Positions 3,265 through 41,896 of a stretch of 42,756 bases of DNA are shown piece after piece; positions within the stretch are counted from its first letter, which is position 1, and each line of letters begins with the position of its first letter. This DNA is from Anaerolineae bacterium (lineage in GTDB: Bacteria > Chloroflexota > Anaerolineae > B4-G1 > SLSP01): positions 1 to 42,756 of the forward strand of contig JALOOJ010000008.1 in the NCBI GenBank assembly GCA_025454475.1, given 5' to 3'. The translations under genes and the position numbers were made by a program. Under the pieces are notes generated by a model. The model had not been told where the DNA came from. It ran no database searches and saw nothing but the letters and a program-made list of their open reading frames with translations.

Positions 3265-4155
3265 ATGAGCGCAGGTCGCATCCTTGTGGTCGAAGATGAT
3301 GCAGATATCTCCAATATGCTACAGCTCTATTTCAAGTCTCAGGGGTATGATGTCTATGTTGCCCTGCGGGGAGCAGCCGCGCTCGATCTGACCCGGCATA
3401 AGATGCCCAACGTGATCGTGTTGGACATCATGCTGCCCGACATCGACGGCTATGAGGTCTGCCGCCGATTGCGCACGAACTTGCGTACGAGCCATATCCC
3501 TATCATCTTCCTGACGCAGAAGGATGAGCGGACCGACCGTATCCGTGGTCTCGAGCTCGGGGCTGATGATTACATCACCAAGCCCTTCGATGTCGAGGAG
3601 CTCCGTCTGCGCGTTCGGAATACCATCAAGAGCGCTGAGGTTGCTAGTCTGACCAACCCGACGACGGGGCTGGCGAGCGGACGGCTGATCGAGCAGCAAC
3701 TCCGCGAGCTCCTGAGAGTCGATGGGTGGGGGGTGCTCTATATCGGCATCAAGGGACTCCAGGCCTTTAATGAGGCCTACGGCTTTGTTGCCGGCCAGGA
3801 GGTGCTGCGTTTCACTGGGATGTTGTTGAACGCGGCTGTCGACGAGATCGGGACTGCCAGTGACTTCACCGGCCATATCGGGGGGGACGAGTTCATCGTC
3901 ATCACCAGAGGTGCAAAGGTTGAGTCGCTTCGAGATGCAATTCGCGATCGGTTCGACAATGATGTCGGCACGCACTATGACTTCATGACCCGTATGCAGG
4001 GGTATCTGTTGACAAAGGACGAGGCCGGCAACGAGGTCCGGACGTCGCTAATGCGACTGGCCATCGGCTTCCTCAAGGCCGAGGACGGTCCGTTTACCGA
4101 TATTCGCGAAATCACGGAGGCTGCTGCCGAGGCCCGGCGCCGGGACAGTGTCTAG
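3265..4155 (+). CDS. response regulator: receiver plus degenerate GGDEF domain
   Basis: A 296-residue protein. Residues 5-120 are a complete receiver with acidic pocket EDD at 10-12, phospho-acceptor Asp54, Thr84 and Lys106. Residues 131-290 are a GGDEF-fold domain opened by NPTTGLASGR, with an intact GGDEF motif at 206-210. The upstream metal and base-binding signature of diguanylate cyclases, normally D-x-D-x-F-K-x-x-N-D-x-x-G-H-x-x-G-D, reads G-I-K-G-L-Q-A-F-N-E-A-Y-G-F-V-A-G-Q. The first metal-binding Asp is therefore Gly and the last Asp is Gln. By family knowledge this predicts loss of c-di-GMP synthesis and a binding or dimerisation role instead. AGGAGG lies 6-11 bases before the ATG. 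It is probably in one transcript with the next receiver. Confidence 0.88.
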   Translation: MSAGRILVVEDDADISNMLQLYFKSQGYDVYVALRGAAALDLTRHKMPNVIVLDIMLPDIDGYEVCRRLRTNLRTSHIPIIFLTQKDERTDRIRGLELGADDYITKPFDVEELRLRVRNTIKSAEVASLTNPTTGLASGRLIEQQLRELLRVDGWGVLYIGIKGLQAFNEAYGFVAGQEVLRFTGMLLNAAVDEIGTASDFTGHIGGDEFIVITRGAKVESLRDAIRDRFDNDVGTHYDFMTRMQGYLLTKDEAGNEVRTSLMRLAIGFLKAEDGPFTDIREITEAAAEARRRDSV

Positions 4156-33026: not shown

Positions 33027-34856
33027 ATGAAGGTGCTTCTATCGGGCAACGAGGCCATCGCGCTCGGGGCATGGGAAGCTGGGATCCAGTACGCCTCTGC
33101 GTATCCTGGCACCCCTTCGACCGAGATACTGGAGAATTTCGCACGCTATCCGGGCATTCGCGCCGAATGGGCCAGCAACGAGAAGGTGGCGCTGGATAAC
33201 GCGGTGGGGGCGGCGTTCGGCGGCGCCAGGACGCTGGCGGCGATGAAACATGTCGGCGTGAATGTCGCGGCTGACAGTCTGATGTCGGTCTCCTACACGG
33301 GTGTGAAGGGCGCGTTGATCCTGGTGAGCGCTGACGACCCCGGCTGCCTCTCATCGCAGAACGAGCAGGACAATCGTCAGTACGCGCGGTTTGGGAAGTT
33401 CCCCTGCATTGATCCTGCCGACAGCGACGAGGCGCGACGCTTTGTGGGGATTGCCGTCGACGTCAGCGAACAGTTTCGGACGCCGGTGATGCTGCGCACG
33501 ACGACGCGGTTGTCCCACTCCAAGTCGGCAGTAGAGGCCAGGGTACCCGACGCGCGCGAGTTCAAGCCCTTGTCGCCCTTCGACCGTGAGGATGGTCTGG
33601 ACCGGACGATCCTTCCTGAAGTGGCGCGACGCCGCCACCCTGAGATCGAGGCGCGGCTCAACGCCATCGCCGAGTGGTCGGCGACGGAGGGGTTTGACTG
33701 CGGGGTGAACCGCATCGAGTGGGGCGAGACCGACATCGGTATTGTCACCTCGGGTATCACCTATCAGTATGTGCGTGAGCTCGCGGGCCACAAGTCCATC
33801 CTCAAGCTGGGGATGAGTTACCCACTGCCGCTGGATAGGATTCGCGAGTTCGCCGAGTCGGTCGACACGCTCATCGTCGTCGAGGAGCTCGACCCCTTTA
33901 TTGAGGAGCAGATCCGGGCTGCTGGCATCGTTGTGGCGCACGGAAAGGACGTTATCCCGATCTGTGGAGAGCTCACGCTGGCGGCGGTTCGTCAGGGGCT
34001 GTACGAAGCGGGGCTGCTGGCAGCGCCACTCGAACAGCCCGCACCTTTTGAGGACGTGACAGTGCCCCGGCGCCCGCCCGCGCTCTGCCCCGGTTGCCCG
34101 CACCGCGCTTTCTTCTACAACCTGAGACGCCACAAACGCAAGGCGGTGCTCGCGGGCGACATCGGTTGCTACTCGATGGGGGCGATGCCGCCTTATGAGG
34201 CCATGGACATGGTGATCTCGATGGGCGCGAGCATCGGTATGGCGCATGGGTTTGCGCGCGCGGGTGGGCAGGAGTCCGCGATCGCCACCATCGGCGACAG
34301 CACGTTCTTTCACTCGGGCATGGCGCCGCTGGCCTCGGCGGTCTACAACCGGTCGAATATCGCCGTTGCCATTCTCGATAACCGCATTACGGCAATGACG
34401 GGCCAACAGCAAAATCCTGGAACGGGCATCACGCTCCAGGGCGAGCAGGGCCACGAGATCGACATCGCGATGGTGTGCCGCGCTATGGGCGTCACCTTCG
34501 TCGAGGAGGTCAATGCCTGGGATGTCAACGCGGTCAACAAGGTGCTGCGCGATGCTCTCGCCCATGAGGACGGCCCGGCGGTTGTCGTCGTGCGGGGTGC
34601 CTGCGTCTTCACGCCGCACTTCCACCTACAACCCAAGATGCACGTCGACCTGGCGAAGTGCGTCACCTGCGGTTCCTGCTTCCGTGTCGGCTGTCCTGCC
34701 ATCATCAAGAGCGACGAGATCTACCCGACCAGCGGCAAGCAGAAAGCAGCCGTCGACCCGCTCCTCTGCACGGGTTGCACCGTGTGCATGCAGGTGTGTC
34801 CGGTGCAGGCGATTGGTCCAGCGGAGCGAGAAGGCAGTCTACAGGAGGCGCTATGA
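33027..34856 (+). CDS. iorA: indolepyruvate:ferredoxin oxidoreductase alpha subunit
   Basis: A 609-residue IorA, which decarboxylates aryl-2-oxo acids from aromatic amino acids to aryl-acetyl-CoA while reducing ferredoxin. The N-terminal pyruvate-ferredoxin-type domain has NEAIALGAWEAGIQYASAYPG. The TPP domain has CPGCPHRAFFYNL, GDIGCYSMGAMPPYEAMDMV and IGDSTFFHSG with downstream DNRITAMTGQQ. The C-terminus holds two [4Fe-4S] motifs, CVTCGSCFRVGCP and CTGCTVCMQVCP. GAGGAGG precedes the ATG. The gene overlaps iorB as ATGA. It is an oxygen-sensitive enzyme class, pointing to anaerobic growth. Confidence 0.96.
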   Translation: MKVLLSGNEAIALGAWEAGIQYASAYPGTPSTEILENFARYPGIRAEWASNEKVALDNAVGAAFGGARTLAAMKHVGVNVAADSLMSVSYTGVKGALILVSADDPGCLSSQNEQDNRQYARFGKFPCIDPADSDEARRFVGIAVDVSEQFRTPVMLRTTTRLSHSKSAVEARVPDAREFKPLSPFDREDGLDRTILPEVARRRHPEIEARLNAIAEWSATEGFDCGVNRIEWGETDIGIVTSGITYQYVRELAGHKSILKLGMSYPLPLDRIREFAESVDTLIVVEELDPFIEEQIRAAGIVVAHGKDVIPICGELTLAAVRQGLYEAGLLAAPLEQPAPFEDVTVPRRPPALCPGCPHRAFFYNLRRHKRKAVLAGDIGCYSMGAMPPYEAMDMVISMGASIGMAHGFARAGGQESAIATIGDSTFFHSGMAPLASAVYNRSNIAVAILDNRITAMTGQQQNPGTGITLQGEQGHEIDIAMVCRAMGVTFVEEVNAWDVNAVNKVLRDALAHEDGPAVVVVRGACVFTPHFHLQPKMHVDLAKCVTCGSCFRVGCPAIIKSDEIYPTSGKQKAAVDPLLCTGCTVCMQVCPVQAIGPAEREGSLQEAL

Positions 34857-35440
34857 TTACCAACTTGGACATGCTCTTCGTCGGCGTCGGTGGGCAGGGG
34901 GTCCTGACGGCGTCGGATATTGCGGCGCAGGTAGGGCTGGATTTGGGGCTGGATGCGAAAAAGTCGGAGGTGCACGGGTTCGCGCAGCGCGGGGGCGTGG
35001 TGGATAGCCACGTGCGCTGGGCGCCCGCCGTGGGCTCTCCGACGTGTGAGAAGGGCACGGTCGACGTGCTGATGGCCTTCGAGCTACTGGAGGCTGGGCG
35101 CTGGGTCGACTGGCTCAGGCCCGGCGGGATGATCGTCGTCAACCGCCAGCAGATCACGCCGATGTCGGTCAGCATCGCGAACGCAGTCTACCCGGATGAG
35201 GCGGCGCTCCTGGCGGCGCTGCGCGGCAGAGCGAGCAAGGTCGTAGTGGTCGATGCGCTGCCGCTGGCTGAGGAAGCGGGCAACACGCGCACCGTGAACA
35301 CGATCATGCTTGCAGCGCTGTCCACGTTGCTGGAGACGGACGCGGAGGTCTGGGAAACGGCGATCCTGCGCCGCGTGCCGCAGAGGTACGCTGACGTGAA
35401 TAGGGAGGCCTTCCGCTTGGGACGTGCGGCGGCGGGTTAG
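34853..35440 (+). CDS. iorB: indolepyruvate:ferredoxin oxidoreductase beta subunit
   Basis: A 195-residue IorB (pyruvate/ketoisovalerate oxidoreductase gamma-type domain). It has LFVGVGGQGVLTASDIAAQ at the N-terminus, the family-typical KKSEVHGFAQRGGVVDSHVRW, and EAGRWVDWLRPGGMIVVN. The ATG overlaps the iorA stop, so the two subunits are translationally coupled; AGGAGG lies about 6 bases upstream inside iorA. The C-terminus is ordinary and complete. The first integron-type core site lies only 22 bases past the stop. Confidence 0.95.
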   Translation: MITNLDMLFVGVGGQGVLTASDIAAQVGLDLGLDAKKSEVHGFAQRGGVVDSHVRWAPAVGSPTCEKGTVDVLMAFELLEAGRWVDWLRPGGMIVVNRQQITPMSVSIANAVYPDEAALLAALRGRASKVVVVDALPLAEEAGNTRTVNTIMLAALSTLLETDAEVWETAILRRVPQRYADVNREAFRLGRAAAG

Positions 35441-35461
35441 GCTTCTTGCGGCGAACCTGTA

Positions 35462-35468
35462 GTTGGGC
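35462..35468 (+). other. integron-type core site GTTGGGC at the 5' cassette boundary
   Basis: GTTGGGC fits the integrase core consensus GTTRRRY, cut after the G. It lies 22 bases past iorB and 25 before the first cassette ORF. No full attC or attI could be recognised upstream, so it may be an attI remnant or a secondary insertion site. Confidence 0.6.
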
Positions 35469-35492
35469 GGCTAAGCTGTATATGGAGATCGA

Positions 35493-36299
35493 ATGGACAT
35501 TACCGACGACGACCTCAGTAGGTTTGAAGCGGAGGGTGCCGCGCCTTTGCCGGTCACAAATGATCAAGGTTACGTCGAAAATGAAGGTGCTCGGATCTGG
35601 TATGCAAGTTACGGCTCCGGCGCGCCAGTGATTCTCTTGCACGGTGGCCTCGGTAATAGTGGCAATTGGGGGTACCAAGTTCCTGCGCTGGTCAGAGCTG
35701 GCTATCGGGTCATATTGATTGACAGCCGAGGTCACGGCCGTAGCACGCGCGATGCGCGACTGTATAGCTATGAGCTGATGGCATCCGATGTTTCGAAGGT
35801 AATGAATGTACTGCATCTTGCGAAGGCGAGTCTGGTTGGCTGGAGCGATGGCGCATGCACAGCATTGGTTCTTGCTTTGAAAGCCCCAGCCCAAGTTGCG
35901 GGCGTGTTTTTCTTTGGGTGCAATATGGACCCGAGCGGTACCAAGGAGTTTGTTTTCACACCGATTATTGGGCGATGCCTCAACCGGCATAAGCAAGACT
36001 ACCAGCGGCTATCGGCCACGCCGAGCCAATTCGATGAGTTTATCGAGGCAGTTGGCCTGATGCAGAGAACGCAACCCGATTATCCGGCGGATGATTTGGC
36101 TCAGATCAGCGTACCAGTTGTGATTGTACATAGTGAGCATGATGAATTCATCATGCGTGAACACGCCGAATATCTCGCTCGGAGTATTCCAAATGCGAAA
36201 TCGGTCAATCTACACGGTGTCAGCCATTTCGCACCGCTACAGAGGCCTGAGCAATTCAACATTGCAGTGCTTGCATTCCTCGGCGGAATCCTACCTTGA
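35493..36299 (+). CDS. alpha/beta hydrolase (first cassette gene)
   Basis: A 268-residue alpha/beta hydrolase. The oxyanion region is ILLHGGLGNSGNW near residue 49, DSRGHGRS follows, the nucleophile Ser is in GWSDGA near 116, the acid is in HSEHDEF, and His lies in GVSHFAPLQ. It is not closely similar in sequence to the two hydrolases at 0.5 and 4.6 kb. GGAG is 5 bases before the ATG. The start lies 25 bases after an integron-type core and the stop 45 bases before an attC-like site, which is the classic cassette layout. Codon use is more AT-rich than that of its neighbours, indicating transfer. The substrate is unknown. Confidence 0.88.
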   Translation: MDITDDDLSRFEAEGAAPLPVTNDQGYVENEGARIWYASYGSGAPVILLHGGLGNSGNWGYQVPALVRAGYRVILIDSRGHGRSTRDARLYSYELMASDVSKVMNVLHLAKASLVGWSDGACTALVLALKAPAQVAGVFFFGCNMDPSGTKEFVFTPIIGRCLNRHKQDYQRLSATPSQFDEFIEAVGLMQRTQPDYPADDLAQISVPVVIVHSEHDEFIMREHAEYLARSIPNAKSVNLHGVSHFAPLQRPEQFNIAVLAFLGGILP

Positions 36300-36344
36300 A
36301 GCAAGCTAGTGGGAAACTGGGACAGGCTTCCTCCTACAGCAGTC

Positions 36345-36468
36345 GCCCAACAAGCGTTTTCACCCGACCGCCTACCGCCCGGTTTTTCAAAGTTGGTACG
36401 CCAGCGAAGGAATTGTATGATGGAGTGAGTCTTGCTGGCCCGGCGACGGGTCAGACGCGACGTTGGGT
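36345..36468 (+). other. attC-like recombination site 1 (124 bp)
   Basis: R'' GCCCAAC (36345-36351, RYYYAAC) and R' GTTGGGT (36462-36468, GTTRRRY) are complementary at 6 of 7 positions. Just inside, the left arm (GCGT, then CACCCGACCGCC at 36361-36372) can pair with the right arm GGCGACGGGTCAGACGC with bulges, as the L boxes and extra-helical bases of attC do. The length is within the usual attC range. Confidence 0.75.
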
Positions 36469-36484
36469 GCACTGCATACGAGGC

Positions 36485-37060
36485 ATGTCTATTTCAATGT
36501 CTTGGCTAATAACAGTAACAGGACGACCGGCCGCAGGGAAGTCAACATTGGCAGCTTGGCTAGGAAAGCGATTGGCTTTTCCCGTTATCAGCAAGGACAG
36601 TATCAAAGAGGTTCTATTCGACCAACTTGGCTGGCAGGATCGCGAATGGTCTAAAATGCTCGGACGAGCAAGTGTGGAGTTGATGTATTACTTTGCTCAG
36701 GTTCAGCTCGAACTTGGAAATTCTGTGATTTTGGACAACGCATTTCATCCCGATTTGGCGTCGCCAAAGCTGCAGGCACTTGAGAAACAGTACAAAGCCA
36801 ACGTGCTCCAGGTTATTTGTGATACCAGCAGCGATATCCTGTTTGAGCGTTTCAGACAACGGGCTGAGTCGGGAATGCGTCATGACGGCCACGTGGATAT
36901 GCAATCTTTGGATGAACTCAAGGCGAATTTGAGACAAGAGTGTTCACTGCGACTGGATATTGGCGGCCCTGTACTGCATGTAGACACAACCGACTTGGCG
37001 GCGCTTCGCTATGAAGTCATACTTGAACAGGTTAAGGCCGTCATAGACAGTGTCGACTAA
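36485..37060 (+). CDS. P-loop kinase, AAA_33 type (second cassette gene)
   Basis: A 191-residue nucleotide-binding protein with Walker A GRPAAGKST near residues 13-21, then KDSIKEVLFDQLGW, and a C-terminal LID-like region with FRQRAESGMRHDGH. It resembles the AAA_33/zeta-like small-molecule kinases, which include antibiotic and polynucleotide kinases; the substrate is not deducible. The ATG at 36485 lies 17 bases past the attC core, which is typical of cassettes. A second ATG at 36497 is possible, and the longer open frame back to 36296 runs through the attC site and is not believed. The composition is AT-richer than the flanks. Confidence 0.85.
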   Translation: MSISMSWLITVTGRPAAGKSTLAAWLGKRLAFPVISKDSIKEVLFDQLGWQDREWSKMLGRASVELMYYFAQVQLELGNSVILDNAFHPDLASPKLQALEKQYKANVLQVICDTSSDILFERFRQRAESGMRHDGHVDMQSLDELKANLRQECSLRLDIGGPVLHVDTTDLAALRYEVILEQVKAVIDSVD

Positions 37061-37071
37061 TCGATAACTGC

Positions 37072-37195
37072 GCTCAACACTGCATGCACCCGACCGCCCA
37101 TACGGTTCGAGTTCTACAGCTACTTTGGCGCGACCATCGCTGTTCGGGATGCAGGCGTCGCTCGTCGCACCTTGGTCGGCGGGTGATGCTTAAGC
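37072..37195 (+). other. attC-like recombination site 2 (124 bp, degenerate right core)
   Basis: R'' GCTCAAC (37072-37078) and R' CTTAAGC (37189-37195) bound exactly 124 bp, as in site 1. CACCCGACCGCC recurs at 37087-37098, at nearly the same offset as in site 1 (15 versus 16 bases). GGTCGGCGGGTGATGC at 37174-37189 forms the opposite arm. The right core differs from GTTRRRY at its first base, the cleavage G. Confidence 0.68.
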
Positions 37196-37211
37196 TCGCT
37201 CTCTGGATGTG

Positions 37212-37297
37212 GGGCGAACTGTCGTCCCGCGTAGACGCGGGCGTTCGCCCAGGGCTCATCGCGCAGCCTTGCCGGACAGGCGAAGTGCAACTTCGCC
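37212..37297. repeat. nested and simple hairpins downstream of the cassettes
   Basis: GGGCGAAC 37212-37219 pairs with GTTCGCCC 37243-37250 around an inner stem, CCCGCG 37226-37231 with CGCGGG 37236-37241. A second hairpin pairs GGCGAAGT 37279-37286 with ACTTCGCC 37290-37297 and abuts the methyltransferase stop. The arms resemble those at 7783-7885, suggesting a dispersed repeat that may also terminate the minus-strand operon. Confidence 0.6.
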
Positions 37298-38122
37298 CTA
37301 CGACGCGATGAAAAGGCCGGAGGTCTTCGTGATGTGGAAGGCGCCCTTGGTCTCGATGGTCGCTGAGATGGTGCGACGGATCGTCGCCCATTGAGAGGGC
37401 TCCAGCGTGACGTGCATCAGCGTTGACGAGGAGCGCAGGTAGGCGACGATAGGCTGCACCTCTGTCACCTCAAGCGCGTCCTCGTAATCGTAGCGCGCCA
37501 CGCTCGGGAAGACCTCCGCAAGCTGGTCCCCGCCATTCTCCAGCGTGAAGCCGCTCGCGACGGCCTGGGTGCGCGCGTGGATATCGGGGATGAAGGCTTC
37601 GACCAACGCCCACAGCTCCGTCATAGCCCCGCCGCCCACGGTCGTCGCAAAGAGCTTGCCGCCGGGCAGCAGCACGCGGCGGATTTCGGCGAGCGCCCGC
37701 CGGCGGTCGGGTACATGGTAGAGCATGTGGTTGGCGACCACGGCGTCGAAGCCAACGCGGTCGGAGCCAACGGCATCGACTCCCGCTGCCGCGCCATCGA
37801 AGGGGAGCGACTGGGCGTCGACAACCTTAAGCGTGGGCGCGGGCTTGAGGTCCACCAGCTTCCGCTGCGCCGCTTCCACCATCCCCGGTGACGCATCAGT
37901 GAGCGTAAGCTCCCATCCTGCGGGGATTCGTGGGCGGTTGATGGCCCAGAGGTCGCCGGGCCCGCAGCCGAGCTCGAGGATACGGGCGTGCTCCGGAAGG
38001 CGCATCATCGTGTCAAAGACCCAGCGTTGCCACCCGTAGGTGTTGGTACTGAAGCGCGCGTGGAGCGCGATGCGGGCGTTCAGATTCTGGTCGTCCTTGT
38101 ACTGCTCTCGTAAGTCACCCAA
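37298..38122 (-). CDS. class I SAM-dependent methyltransferase
   Basis: A 274-residue methyltransferase. Motif I is ILELGCGPGDLW at about 48-59, followed by LTLTDASPGMVEAAQ, VDAQSLPFDG and FDAVVANHMLYHVPDRRRALAEIRRVLLPGGKL, the UbiE/Methyltransf_11 pattern. The start is TTG at 38122, supported by GGAGGA about 5 bases upstream; the longer frame into the LOG gene is rejected. The 8-base overlap with the LOG stop indicates coupling. It is the last gene of the glycyl-radical operon. The methyl acceptor is unknown; a nucleoside-derived or small-molecule substrate is a guess from context. Confidence 0.88.
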   Translation of the reverse strand: MGDLREQYKDDQNLNARIALHARFSTNTYGWQRWVFDTMMRLPEHARILELGCGPGDLWAINRPRIPAGWELTLTDASPGMVEAAQRKLVDLKPAPTLKVVDAQSLPFDGAAAGVDAVGSDRVGFDAVVANHMLYHVPDRRRALAEIRRVLLPGGKLFATTVGGGAMTELWALVEAFIPDIHARTQAVASGFTLENGGDQLAEVFPSVARYDYEDALEVTEVQPIVAYLRSSSTLMHVTLEPSQWATIRRTISATIETKGAFHITKTSGLFIAS

Positions 38123-38699
38123 GCACTTCCTCCAGTCCGATCCATTTGCGTGGCGGCAAGACGGGTTCGTAGGCGTCGAGGTAGGTGAGCGCACTCTCCA
38201 CGTCCTCGCTGACGGCGTATAGATCGCGCCACGGTTTGGCAAACCCCCCGCGGTAGTAGTGTTCGAACAGCGCGATCAGCGGCTCGTAGAACCCCTGGAT
38301 GTTAAGCAACACGACCGGTTTGGTGTGCTCCCGGAGCTGGCGGAGGGTCAGGATTTCGGTCAGTTCCTCCAGCGTACCGAAGCCCCCCGGGAGGACGAGA
38401 AACGCGTCCGCCAGCTCCTCCATGCGGGCCTTGCGCTCGCGCATGTCGCGTGTGACCACGAACTCATCGGCTTCTGCGAAGGTGATGGGCTCGGCCGCCA
38501 GTCGTTGGGGCATGACACCGATCACGCGCCCACCACCGGACTTGACCGCACGGGCCAACGCTCCCATCAGGCCGATGCCGGCGCCTCCGTAGATGAGTGT
38601 ATCGCCGCGCTGGGCGATCAGCCGCCCCAAGGTGTCCGCCGCCGTGAAGAAGACAGGGGCGACGCCGTCGCTGGATGAGCAGTATACGCAGATGTTCAT
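38115..38699 (-). CDS. LOG-family nucleotide 5'-monophosphate phosphoribohydrolase
   Basis: A 194-residue Rossmann-fold protein of the LOG/TIGR00730 family. It has the nucleotide-binding GGAGIGLMGALARAV at 38-52, MRERKARM near 86-93 and the catalytic signature PGGFGTLEELTEILT at 104-118. Members cut the N-glycosidic bond of AMP or cytokinin-type nucleotides to free base and ribose 5-phosphate; despite older labels, they are not lysine decarboxylases. It is 12 bases downstream of the nucleoside phosphorylase, so the two together form a base-releasing pair in this operon. Confidence 0.92.
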   Translation of the reverse strand: MNICVYCSSSDGVAPVFFTAADTLGRLIAQRGDTLIYGGAGIGLMGALARAVKSGGGRVIGVMPQRLAAEPITFAEADEFVVTRDMRERKARMEELADAFLVLPGGFGTLEELTEILTLRQLREHTKPVVLLNIQGFYEPLIALFEHYYRGGFAKPWRDLYAVSEDVESALTYLDAYEPVLPPRKWIGLEEVLG

Positions 38700-38711: not shown

Positions 38712-39494
38712 CTAGAGCTCCAGACAGGCTTCGGCTGCCAACCAGAACAGCTTCTCGCGGACGGAGGTACGCTCGTTCCAGCGGCGCGAGTCCCATGTAT
38801 CGCCGCTGACGTCGTCCCCGCCGTATAGGATCTGACCGAAGGTCACGCCGCGGAAGGCAGCCACCGCGAAGAACGCGGCGGCTTCCATCTCGACGGTCAG
38901 AGCCCCTTCTTCTTTGCGTAGGGCGATCTTCGCCGGTGTCTCGCGATAGAACGCATCGGTAGTCCAGGTCTTCCCCAGCACGTAGGGGACCTCGTGATGC
39001 GTCAGAACGCGCTCGACGGCCTGGACTGCGCACTCGGAGGCATAGGCCTCGCGGGCGGGGGCGGCGTAGTGGTAGGAGGTCCCCTCATCGCGGATTGCCG
39101 CCGTGGGCACGACGAGGTGCCCTACTGTCAGGTCACGATTGAGCACGCCTGCGCCGCCACATGCGATGGCCGTCCGCACGCCCTTGGCGATCGCCTCCTC
39201 CAGCAGCCCCGCAGCCAGTGGCGCGCCGACGCCTGGGTGGAAGACCGTAAGCCGTTGTCCATCCACCTCGAGCTCATAGAACGGGTGCTCGCCCATCTCG
39301 GACTTGGAGCTGCTGACTTTCCTGAGACGTCCTCTCTCGACGAGCTGAGTGAGCACTTCCTGGAAGAAGCAGATAACGCAGTCTGGCGCGATGTCCTCGG
39401 GCTTGATGAGCTCGCCGGGCTCAATCAGCGCCTTGCGGGTCGTGTCAAACTCCAGGATGGGGAAGTCCCGACGGAGGTGTTCTTTCGTGTTCAC
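38712..39494 (-). CDS. nucleoside phosphorylase (uridine/purine phosphorylase family)
   Basis: A 260-residue PNP/UDP-family enzyme, splitting a nucleoside with phosphate into base and ribose 1-phosphate. Family features are TVFHPGVGAPLAAGLLEEAIAKG, IACGGAGVLN, the VVPTAAIRDEGTSYHY block and VEMEAAAFFAVAAFRGV, whose E-M-E holds the ribose. The GTG start at 39494 overlaps the glycyl-radical-enzyme stop as GTGA; the longer upstream frame lies inside that gene. Whether it prefers uridine, purine or a modified nucleoside is not readable. The context suggests a joint pathway with the LOG protein. Confidence 0.9.
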   Translation of the reverse strand: MNTKEHLRRDFPILEFDTTRKALIEPGELIKPEDIAPDCVICFFQEVLTQLVERGRLRKVSSSKSEMGEHPFYELEVDGQRLTVFHPGVGAPLAAGLLEEAIAKGVRTAIACGGAGVLNRDLTVGHLVVPTAAIRDEGTSYHYAAPAREAYASECAVQAVERVLTHHEVPYVLGKTWTTDAFYRETPAKIALRKEEGALTVEMEAAAFFAVAAFRGVTFGQILYGGDDVSGDTWDSRRWNERTSVREKLFWLAAEACLEL

Positions 39495-41839
39495 TGGCGG
39501 TGCTTTGTCCGGCCGATGATGTGGTCTTGCAGATCCTTGGGGATGAGCCGGAACATCTGCGAATACCCGGCGACGCGAACGGCGATATTGCCATAGTGCT
39601 CGGGATCGGCCTGTGCCTGCCTGAGGCGTTCCGCCGTGACAACGTTCCACTGCAGTTGGCCCACGCCCATCCCCATAGCTGTCGTGATGAGCTGAGCGAC
39701 CAGGTTCGGCCCCGCGGGTCCCTCGACGAGCACGGGGTCAATCTCCACGATCGCGGCTGATCCACCGGCGGCTTTGGTATGGGGCAGCCGAGCTAGCGAG
39801 CTGAGTAGTGCGGTGATACCTTTGACATCCCGTCCCTGTTGGGCCGAGAGCGAGTAGGCCAGAGGTTCACCGGCTCGCCGGCCGTCGGGCGTCGCGCCCA
39901 CGTTGTGCCCGAAGTCGAGGTGCCATACGAAGGAGAAGAGATGCACGAAGTATCGCCCGCCGAGTGGGCTGCGCATCCCGTCCATCAGCGCGATGAAGTC
40001 ATCGTCGACTCTTGCCGCCAGGGCGTCGACCTCCGGATCGTCATTTCCGTACTTCGAGACACTCAGGAGCCGTCGTCGGAGAGGCTCGAAGCCCTCGTAG
40101 TCAGCCGCTATGGCCGCCAGGAGCTCACCGGCGTCGATGGCCTTCTGCTCAAAGAGCAGGCGCTTGAGGGTCATCAGCGAGTCCGCGGTGGTCGCAGTGC
40201 CGATGAAGCAGACGGAGTGGTAGTCGTAGATGGCGCCGCCATCGGTGATATCGCGCCCGCGCGCTATGCAGTCATCGGTCAGCGTCGACCAGCACGGCTG
40301 CGGCCCCGCCTCCCGCTGCGCCAGCTCGCCGCGGTTCACGTGATAGACCATACGGCGCGCGAAGAAGTCCACCTGTCTGCAGTAGGCGTCGTACAGCGCA
40401 TCGAAAGTGGCGAACGAGGCCAGCGCGCCGGTCTGCGGGCCCACCTGTTCTCCGGTGCGCGGATCCCTGCCGTCGAACAGCGCGTACTCCAGGCACTTGG
40501 TCGAGCAAAGGATCCCAGACACCGCATGCGGGTTCGCCCGTCCCGGAATCGTCAGCTCCACGCACCCGATCGGCGCATAATCGCGCGCATCCTCAAGCGC
40601 GATGCCCCGATCGGTGAGGGCCGGGATGAAGACGTCATCGTTAAAGATGAAGGGGATGCCGCCGCCGCGGGCGATCAGATCGCTCGCGAGACCGATGAAC
40701 TCGGATGGCGTATCGGGACCGACGCGGATGGAGACATCGCGCACAAAGCCGACGCTGCGGGTCGCCTCCAGGATGATGCCGCTTAGCTCGTTCACGGCGT
40801 CGCGACCCCATCGGTCGACGCCGCCCAGCGTGATCGCCTGGACGTCGTAGTCGCGGTAGAGGCGGCAGGCGAGCTCTTCCATGAGATGCCGCGCGTCGTT
40901 GGCGGATAGGCGCCCGGCATCGCGATCGGCCTCGTAGTACGGGTAGAGGATTTGGTCCAACCGTCCGATCGAGTTGGCATTGACGCCGTCCTCGCCGCAC
41001 GTCAGGATATGGGCCAGCCAGAGCGCCTGGACGGCCTCAGCGAAGGTCCGTGCGCTATGCGCAGGCACCCGGTCGCAGCGCTCGGCGATGTCCAGGAGGC
41101 GATGGACCTCCTGTGATGAGTTGGCCGTGCGAGCGAGCTCGCGCGCCGTCTCGGCGTAGCGGTGGCCCAGGAGGATTCCCGCCTCGCAAACGGCGAGGGC
41201 GGCGCGCCAGAAGTTCTCCTTCTGCGGGTACTCAGGGTCGGCGATATCCGCTGTACTCAGGCACGTCTCGATCTCCGTCCGAATCCCCGCAAATCCGACC
41301 GCCAGGACCTTGGCATAGTCGCGGATGGAGTGGTTCTCCATCCAGCCATGCGCCCAGTAGACCCCGCTCGTGTCGCCCGTGCCCATAACACCTGCTTGGT
41401 AGGCCTCCGGAAAGCTCCCGATGGCCTGCCACAGGGGGCTGCGCCAACGTGCCACGACCTCGCAGATAGACGGGAGTTCAGCGGGCGTGATGCCCAGGGC
41501 CGCCATGTGCGCTGTGTGGTTGGGATCGTCCGGATCGGGCAGCGGCAGGCGCGGGTAATCCTGCGGAAGGTGGTTGCCCGCGATCTGCCATTCGGGTTCG
41601 ATCTCGACAGGTGCGAGCCTGATCAGCTCAACCAGGTAATTTGCCCTGATCTGAACCCGTGACCAACCGCTCTTGTTGGCCAGCACCGGCGCCGGAGATT
41701 CTGTTGGGGTATTCGCCCGCCAGAAGGCGACCGTCGAAAGGAAGGGGTTGTGGGCGATGTGAGAGCCTCCGCGCGCCATCACGTCGTCGCGCAGGCGCTC
41801 GATCCTTGGTGGTGTCGTCTTGATCTCAACGGTTTCCAC
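39491..41839 (-). CDS. glycyl radical enzyme of the PFL-like (eliminase-type) family, function unknown
   Basis: A 782-residue glycyl radical enzyme. The radical site is Gly758 in the C-terminal RVAGYSQMF. The thiyl Cys426 sits in YAPIGCVELTIPGRA, a G-C-V-E form shared by glycerol/diol dehydratases, choline TMA-lyase and HypD, whereas PFL itself has a Cys-Cys pair. Residues after the Cys, ANPHAVSG, lack the usual eliminase Pro, so the branch is unclear. GTG at 41839, with AAGGAG 6 bases upstream, is the start. No radical SAM activase is in the window, so activation must come from elsewhere. It heads a four-gene operon with two nucleoside/nucleotide-cleaving enzymes and a methyltransferase. Confidence 0.9.
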   Translation of the reverse strand: METVEIKTTPPRIERLRDDVMARGGSHIAHNPFLSTVAFWRANTPTESPAPVLANKSGWSRVQIRANYLVELIRLAPVEIEPEWQIAGNHLPQDYPRLPLPDPDDPNHTAHMAALGITPAELPSICEVVARWRSPLWQAIGSFPEAYQAGVMGTGDTSGVYWAHGWMENHSIRDYAKVLAVGFAGIRTEIETCLSTADIADPEYPQKENFWRAALAVCEAGILLGHRYAETARELARTANSSQEVHRLLDIAERCDRVPAHSARTFAEAVQALWLAHILTCGEDGVNANSIGRLDQILYPYYEADRDAGRLSANDARHLMEELACRLYRDYDVQAITLGGVDRWGRDAVNELSGIILEATRSVGFVRDVSIRVGPDTPSEFIGLASDLIARGGGIPFIFNDDVFIPALTDRGIALEDARDYAPIGCVELTIPGRANPHAVSGILCSTKCLEYALFDGRDPRTGEQVGPQTGALASFATFDALYDAYCRQVDFFARRMVYHVNRGELAQREAGPQPCWSTLTDDCIARGRDITDGGAIYDYHSVCFIGTATTADSLMTLKRLLFEQKAIDAGELLAAIAADYEGFEPLRRRLLSVSKYGNDDPEVDALAARVDDDFIALMDGMRSPLGGRYFVHLFSFVWHLDFGHNVGATPDGRRAGEPLAYSLSAQQGRDVKGITALLSSLARLPHTKAAGGSAAIVEIDPVLVEGPAGPNLVAQLITTAMGMGVGQLQWNVVTAERLRQAQADPEHYGNIAVRVAGYSQMFRLIPKDLQDHIIGRTKHRQ

Positions 41840-41849
41840 GAACTTCTCC

Positions 41850-41868
41850 TTGGCGCAACTTGCGCCAA
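41850..41868. promoter_or_regulatory. perfect palindromic operator candidate of the glycyl-radical operon
   Basis: TTGGCGCAACTTGCGCCAA has two perfect 9-base arms around one central base. It covers the predicted transcription start, touches the -10 element and overlaps the edge of the ribosome binding site, as expected for a repressor site. The alternative is an RNA hairpin hiding the ribosome binding site. Confidence 0.6.
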
Positions 41869-41896
41869 TGGTAGGGCAGATCGGGCCAGGCGTCAA
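41868..41896 (-). promoter_or_regulatory. promoter of the glycyl-radical operon
   Basis: On the minus strand TTGACG (41896-41891) and TACCAT (41873-41868) are separated by the ideal 17 bases. The palindrome begins at the last base of the -10. Confidence 0.58.

Follow-up and report, generated by a model that had tools for sequence, protein, structure and literature searches.

Between iorB, which encodes the beta subunit of indolepyruvate oxidoreductase, and a methyltransferase gene on the opposite strand, the 42,756 nt-long stretch of DNA analyzed here (the window) carries two genes arranged like integron gene cassettes. This raises the question of whether they are cassettes and how they came to lie behind a metabolic operon. 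A CALIN is a cluster of attC sites lacking an integron integrase; such clusters are common and are reported where at least two attC sites occur without the integrase gene intI (IntegronFinder 2.0, PMC9024848). We consider it very likely that the locus is a two-cassette CALIN, in which an integron integrase inserted a hydrolase cassette and a kinase cassette, both bearing an attC of their own, into the space that separates iorB from the methyltransferase gene (Table 1).

Table 1 Features of the cassette block and its flanks in the window.
Feature	Position	Strand	Remarks
iorB (indolepyruvate oxidoreductase subunit beta), upstream flank	34853..35440	+	Outside the element
5' core GTTGGGC (G^TTRRRY)	35462..35468	+	Left array boundary, 21 bp past the iorB stop codon; direct reading
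Cassette 1, 1000 bp	35463..36462	+	GC 0.538; limits predicted from G^TT cleavage points 35462 and 36462
ORF1, alpha/beta hydrolase, 268 aa	35493..36299	+	Pfam Abhydrolase_1, 92 bits
attC site 1, 124 nt	36345..36468	+	R'' GCCCAAC, L'' CACCCG + extrahelical A, R' GTTGGGT; 28.2 bits
Cassette 2, 727 bp	36463..37189	+	GC 0.51; limits predicted from attC1 and degenerate attC2
ORF2, small P-loop kinase, 191 aa	36485..37060	+	Walker A GRPAAGKST, AAA_33 family
attC site 2, decayed, 124 nt	37072..37195	+	R'' GCTCAAC, L''/L' stem + extrahelical A intact, R' CTTAAGC; 22.6 bits
Methyltransferase, downstream flank	37298..38242	-	Outside the element; directly 3' of iorB in same-genus G003

The order of a core, an ORF, an attC-like site, a second ORF and a second site, with both ORFs in the same direction, had been described in the original prediction and is present as described, entirely on the plus strand. 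ORF1 and ORF2 start 24 and 16 bp past the first and second core, respectively, and their stop codons lie 45 bp before site 1 and 11 bp before site 2. Judged from the sequence, both units have the makeup of a cassette, that is, one apparently promoterless ORF followed by its own attC in a single direction. The two sites are spaced 0.7 kb apart on the same strand and thus provide the at least two attC sites at which a CALIN is reported, the second being decayed at R'. The AT-richer composition that had been claimed was also found: the GC content of the two-cassette block is 52.6%, compared with a mean of 61.6% (sd 0.021) for non-overlapping 1727-bp segments of the contig, none of which falls below 57%.

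Integron integrase loci were gathered across the phylum with the TIGR02249 cut-off, the adjoining DNA was fetched, and attC sites were recognized by their R boxes together with an L stem that contains an extrahelical base. From 21 aligned sites belonging to integrase-linked arrays of the same phylum, we built a covariance model, leaving out the window's own sites, and scanned the whole window unfiltered. In the training alignment, 94.4% of the cells were paired for the attC structure, versus 79.6% after shuffling and 26-43% after sliding, and the training sites show strong covariation. The model, run as the check that the original prediction had called for, picked out just two sites in the window, both at the predicted places and on the plus strand, with E values of 1.5e-5 for site 1 and 4e-4 for site 2; the third-best match scored 12.7 bits. 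As controls, two sets of other bacterial DNA (~0.68 Mb in total) were scanned; the best score was 18.3 bits in the 544-kb set and 14.6 bits in the 134-kb set. A genome-wide search for further attC sites, also proposed earlier, gave among the 150 of 3142 candidates scored a best match elsewhere of 17.5 bits (G000:C178:12349-12488), which lies at noise level and was rejected as a further attC. Site 2 was absent from this output and, as 150 of the 3142 candidates were scored, more weak attC sites may be present in this genome.

A strict R/L box scanner detected neither site in the window, a scanner modelling the extrahelical base placed site 1 at the top of its window matches, an Rfam search of the window at gathering thresholds had no match, and BLAST of the attC1 DNA against its own genome yielded chance matches besides itself. 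The bottom-strand folds, which had been suggested as a check, were mildly more stable than those of shuffled sequences (z of -1.6 for site 1 and -2.3 for site 2; top strand, -2.0 and -0.4), and their energy alone is not decisive. Because these fold energies are just mildly unusual, the case for attC rests on the covariance model and the aligned register.

Both sites have a left arm composed of CACCCG, an extrahelical A and CCGC, with a matching right arm (ACGGGTCA and GCGGGTGA), and in the alignment the L''/L' stem and the extrahelical A fall in the same columns as in attC sites of the same-family genome G022, the same-genus genome G002, the same-order genome G024 and others. For site 1 the claim of an attC-like GCCCAAC...GTTGGGT element was borne out, since both R boxes fit the consensus (RYYYAAC and GTTRRRY) and the model supports it; its outer L pair is mismatched and its inner stem imperfect. 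The second site, predicted as an equivalent 124-bp element, is matched by the model and has an R'' box that fits RYYYAAC, but its R' box, CTTAAGC, departs from GTTRRRY and the spacer between L' and R' is ~6 nt short, visible as a gap in the alignment. Both sites score below the better attC sites of relatives (about 40-80 bits). Because the right end of site 2 is short and its R' box reads CTTAAGC, we infer that the 3' end of the array decayed or was cut, and cassette 2 has probably lost the capacity for clean excision.

A search for intI across the entire genome, a 369-contig draft that is 95.7% complete, found no TIGR02249 match over the cut-off, so that the name CALIN, as originally proposed, fits two model-supported attC sites with no intI detected. 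The genome's two best integrase candidates score better as Xer-type recombinases. Since the draft is 95.7% complete, the absence of intI is not proven, and the gene could be missing from the assembly. A complete integron has intI and attI beside its array; here intI was not found and iorB is separated from the first core by 21 bp. As a separate observation, this genome (L003, G000:C305; 304-1182 and 1390-2268) encodes a tyrosine recombinase that scores about equally as XerA and as an integron integrase, below the cut-off for both, and adjoins a transposase-like ORF.

The original prediction had held cassettes to be notable in a probable Chloroflexota chromosome. The assignment to Chloroflexota is consistent with the nearest relatives and with the attC sites, whereas the claim of notability did not hold up: of 400 genomes in the phylum, 42 carry intI over the cut-off, as do 13 of 60 relatives, attC matches at E<=0.05 occur in 49 of these 60 (own genome counted in both cases), and the phylum is already among the published integron carriers (PMC9668308, PMC8618304). 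Around this lineage, attC clusters far outnumber the detected integrases, partly owing to the fragmentation of draft genomes.

How the block reached its place can be read in part from the corresponding loci of relatives. In the same-genus genome G003, the methyltransferase gene lies within about 200 bp of iorB and no gene was found between them; both neighbours are conserved, the iorB DNA is 82% identical to that of the window, and the junction is not alignable. The comparison of syntenic iorB loci that had been suggested thus revealed relatives that lack both genes here; in G003 the methyltransferase gene comes directly after iorB. Elsewhere the interval is variable, and the intervening genes are all on the reverse strand. 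By inspection of the sequence, three genomes of another genus in the family have a reverse-strand toxin-antitoxin-like pair behind iorB, and two same-genus genomes (G001 and G002) have an adenosine-deaminase-like gene there. Two outcomes had been named in advance as contrary to the prediction, the failure of both sites to match an attC model and the vertical inheritance of the two genes at this locus; both were looked for and neither was found. Probable acquisition through an integron integrase is supported by the model matches and by the absence of the block from relatives.

Two further features of the surroundings were noticed. A GC-rich palindromic unit (GTCCCGCGT..CGCGGGCG..GCCC) occurs in 51-bp tandem copies in G003 (L225:795-947) and once in the window flank (37224-37257). 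Farther downstream, an 801-aa ORF on the minus strand (39491-41896) has a glycyl-radical-like C-terminus (RVAGYS) and looks like a glycyl radical enzyme.

Three routes to a CALIN are listed in the literature, namely, off-target insertion by IntI elsewhere, loss of intI, and rearrangement (PMC8618304). Off-target insertion probably fits best here because the first core follows the complete iorB after just 21 bp and because the same-genus locus is empty. The left edge of the block is G^TT, but its 3' edge has decayed too far to be read as a clean join of either the G^TT or the G^WT type, and hence this junction cannot confirm the off-target step. We regard it as unlikely that a complete integron once stood at the locus and left the two cassettes after deletion of intI and attI. 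The genus did have an apparently decaying integron: elsewhere in the G003 genome (L222, C226), positions 1338-2054 encode a C-terminal intI fragment that scores 170.9 bits as intI versus 79 as XerC and whose N-terminal part is missing, and about 2 kb past it, behind a DUF4145 ORF, lies an attC-like match of 22.9 bits (3761-3848). Loss of intI is also one of the reviewed routes (PMC8618304), but the 21 bp in front of the first core hold no remnant of attI or intI, the spot between iorB and the methyltransferase gene is empty in G003, and the deletion would have had to end precisely behind iorB. Delivery of the block by homologous recombination, or by a transposon carrying a piece of an array, instead of by direct integrase action at the site appears quite improbable; the spot behind iorB is variable, takes in other DNA in relatives and has a ragged 3' end in the window, yet the left edge coincides exactly with the G^TTGGGC core, which is expected of insertion by an integrase, and no transposase ORF was seen within the block. 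That two ordinary genes are flanked by chance inverted repeats is hardly credible and, despite single-strand folds only slightly more stable than shuffles, largely refuted by the model scores and the alignment register, as both matches have the predicted coordinates, strand and order, exceed everything in the control DNA and share the extrahelical A and the spacing of relatives' attC sites, and as the block is absent from relatives.

An integrase-inserted cassette pair remains the preferred reading. The hydrolase has a nucleophile elbow (GWSDG), Asp and His motifs farther on and an SD-like GGAG upstream, and it shares the fold family and the catalytic motifs with alpha/beta hydrolases of the PcaD and bromoperoxidase-esterase group. 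Proteins with 70-75% identity to it occur in Pseudomonadota (Rhizobium, Phyllobacterium, Paraburkholderia), Bacillota (Paenibacillus) and other Chloroflexota, whereas a search of 59 relatives at E<=1e-70 did not find it. Its tree did not resolve a donor, and the DNA beside its homologues gave no attC match above 18.3 bits. The kinase matches the AAA_33 family and aligns over 177 residues with its homologue 2rhm, a solved putative kinase (E 1.1e-35). Kinase homologues were found in 7 of the 59 relatives, the stronger matches at 39-43% identity, and a scan of the genome_contigs set with the kinase turned up no relatives; the block as a whole had no plasmid match by megablast. In the same-genus genome G002, a homologue with 41% identity is followed, 25 bp past its end, by an attC scoring 50.1 bits, which indicates that the kinase family is found as a cassette in this genus outside the window as well. 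The cargo had been proposed as a possible resistance or modification pair. No curated resistance-family cut-off was reached, the hydrolase falling below every NCBIfam cut-off shown, including those of macrolide esterases (57 bits versus 420), and PADLOC gave just one marginal Walker-A match of the kinase (VakA, 18 bits), which was rejected. A resistance or defence function is hence unsupported by sequence comparison.

In the mechanism that we propose, an IntI that either acted in trans or was later lost would have recombined attC, folded from its bottom strand, with a genomic site resembling G^TT just past iorB, which is insertion at a non-attI, off-target place. The last attC would then have lost its R' box, probably fixing the cassette pair, and the hydrolase and kinase genes would be transcribed by read-through from iorAB. 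Such read-through is plausible since the genes run in the same direction, begin 21 bp behind and have no terminator-like site between; none was found in 35300-37400, where promoter-like sites stayed at chance level in a promoter scan.

Compared with known systems, the locus is one more CALIN, and both CALINs and Chloroflexota integrons are already known. Like other CALINs, it has two same-strand attC sites with ORFs between and no intI nearby (PMC9024848), but it is minimal, with two cassettes and an attC degenerate at R', where the average is almost six attC sites (PMC9024848). Integrons of Chloroflexota relatives (for example, G024, G021 and G022) share its attC architecture, composed of R'', a spacer and L'' with the extrahelical A and in many cases about 125-133 nt long; in contrast to the genome studied here, where no intI was detected, their intI is intact and their attC sites are more numerous. 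Cassette insertion at attG sites has been reported by Loot et al. (2024), and, as far as that work is represented by its citation in PMC12901181, the cassettes of the window are likewise chromosomal, intergenic and without attI, whereas their decayed 3' join makes the place a candidate attG junction only.

The locus is a small, well-delimited insertion in a lineage whose integrons the literature consulted covers mainly in lists. We tentatively suggest that off-target insertion joined two foreign genes to iorAB, that the loss of R' may have made them permanent members of the operon and, more widely, that off-target insertion might be the usual fate of cassettes in the order, because attC clusters outnumber integrases so strongly. 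A phylum-specific attC model matches most genomes of the order and intact intI is found in a minority, which makes this lineage a good one for studying the fixation of cassettes outside integrons.
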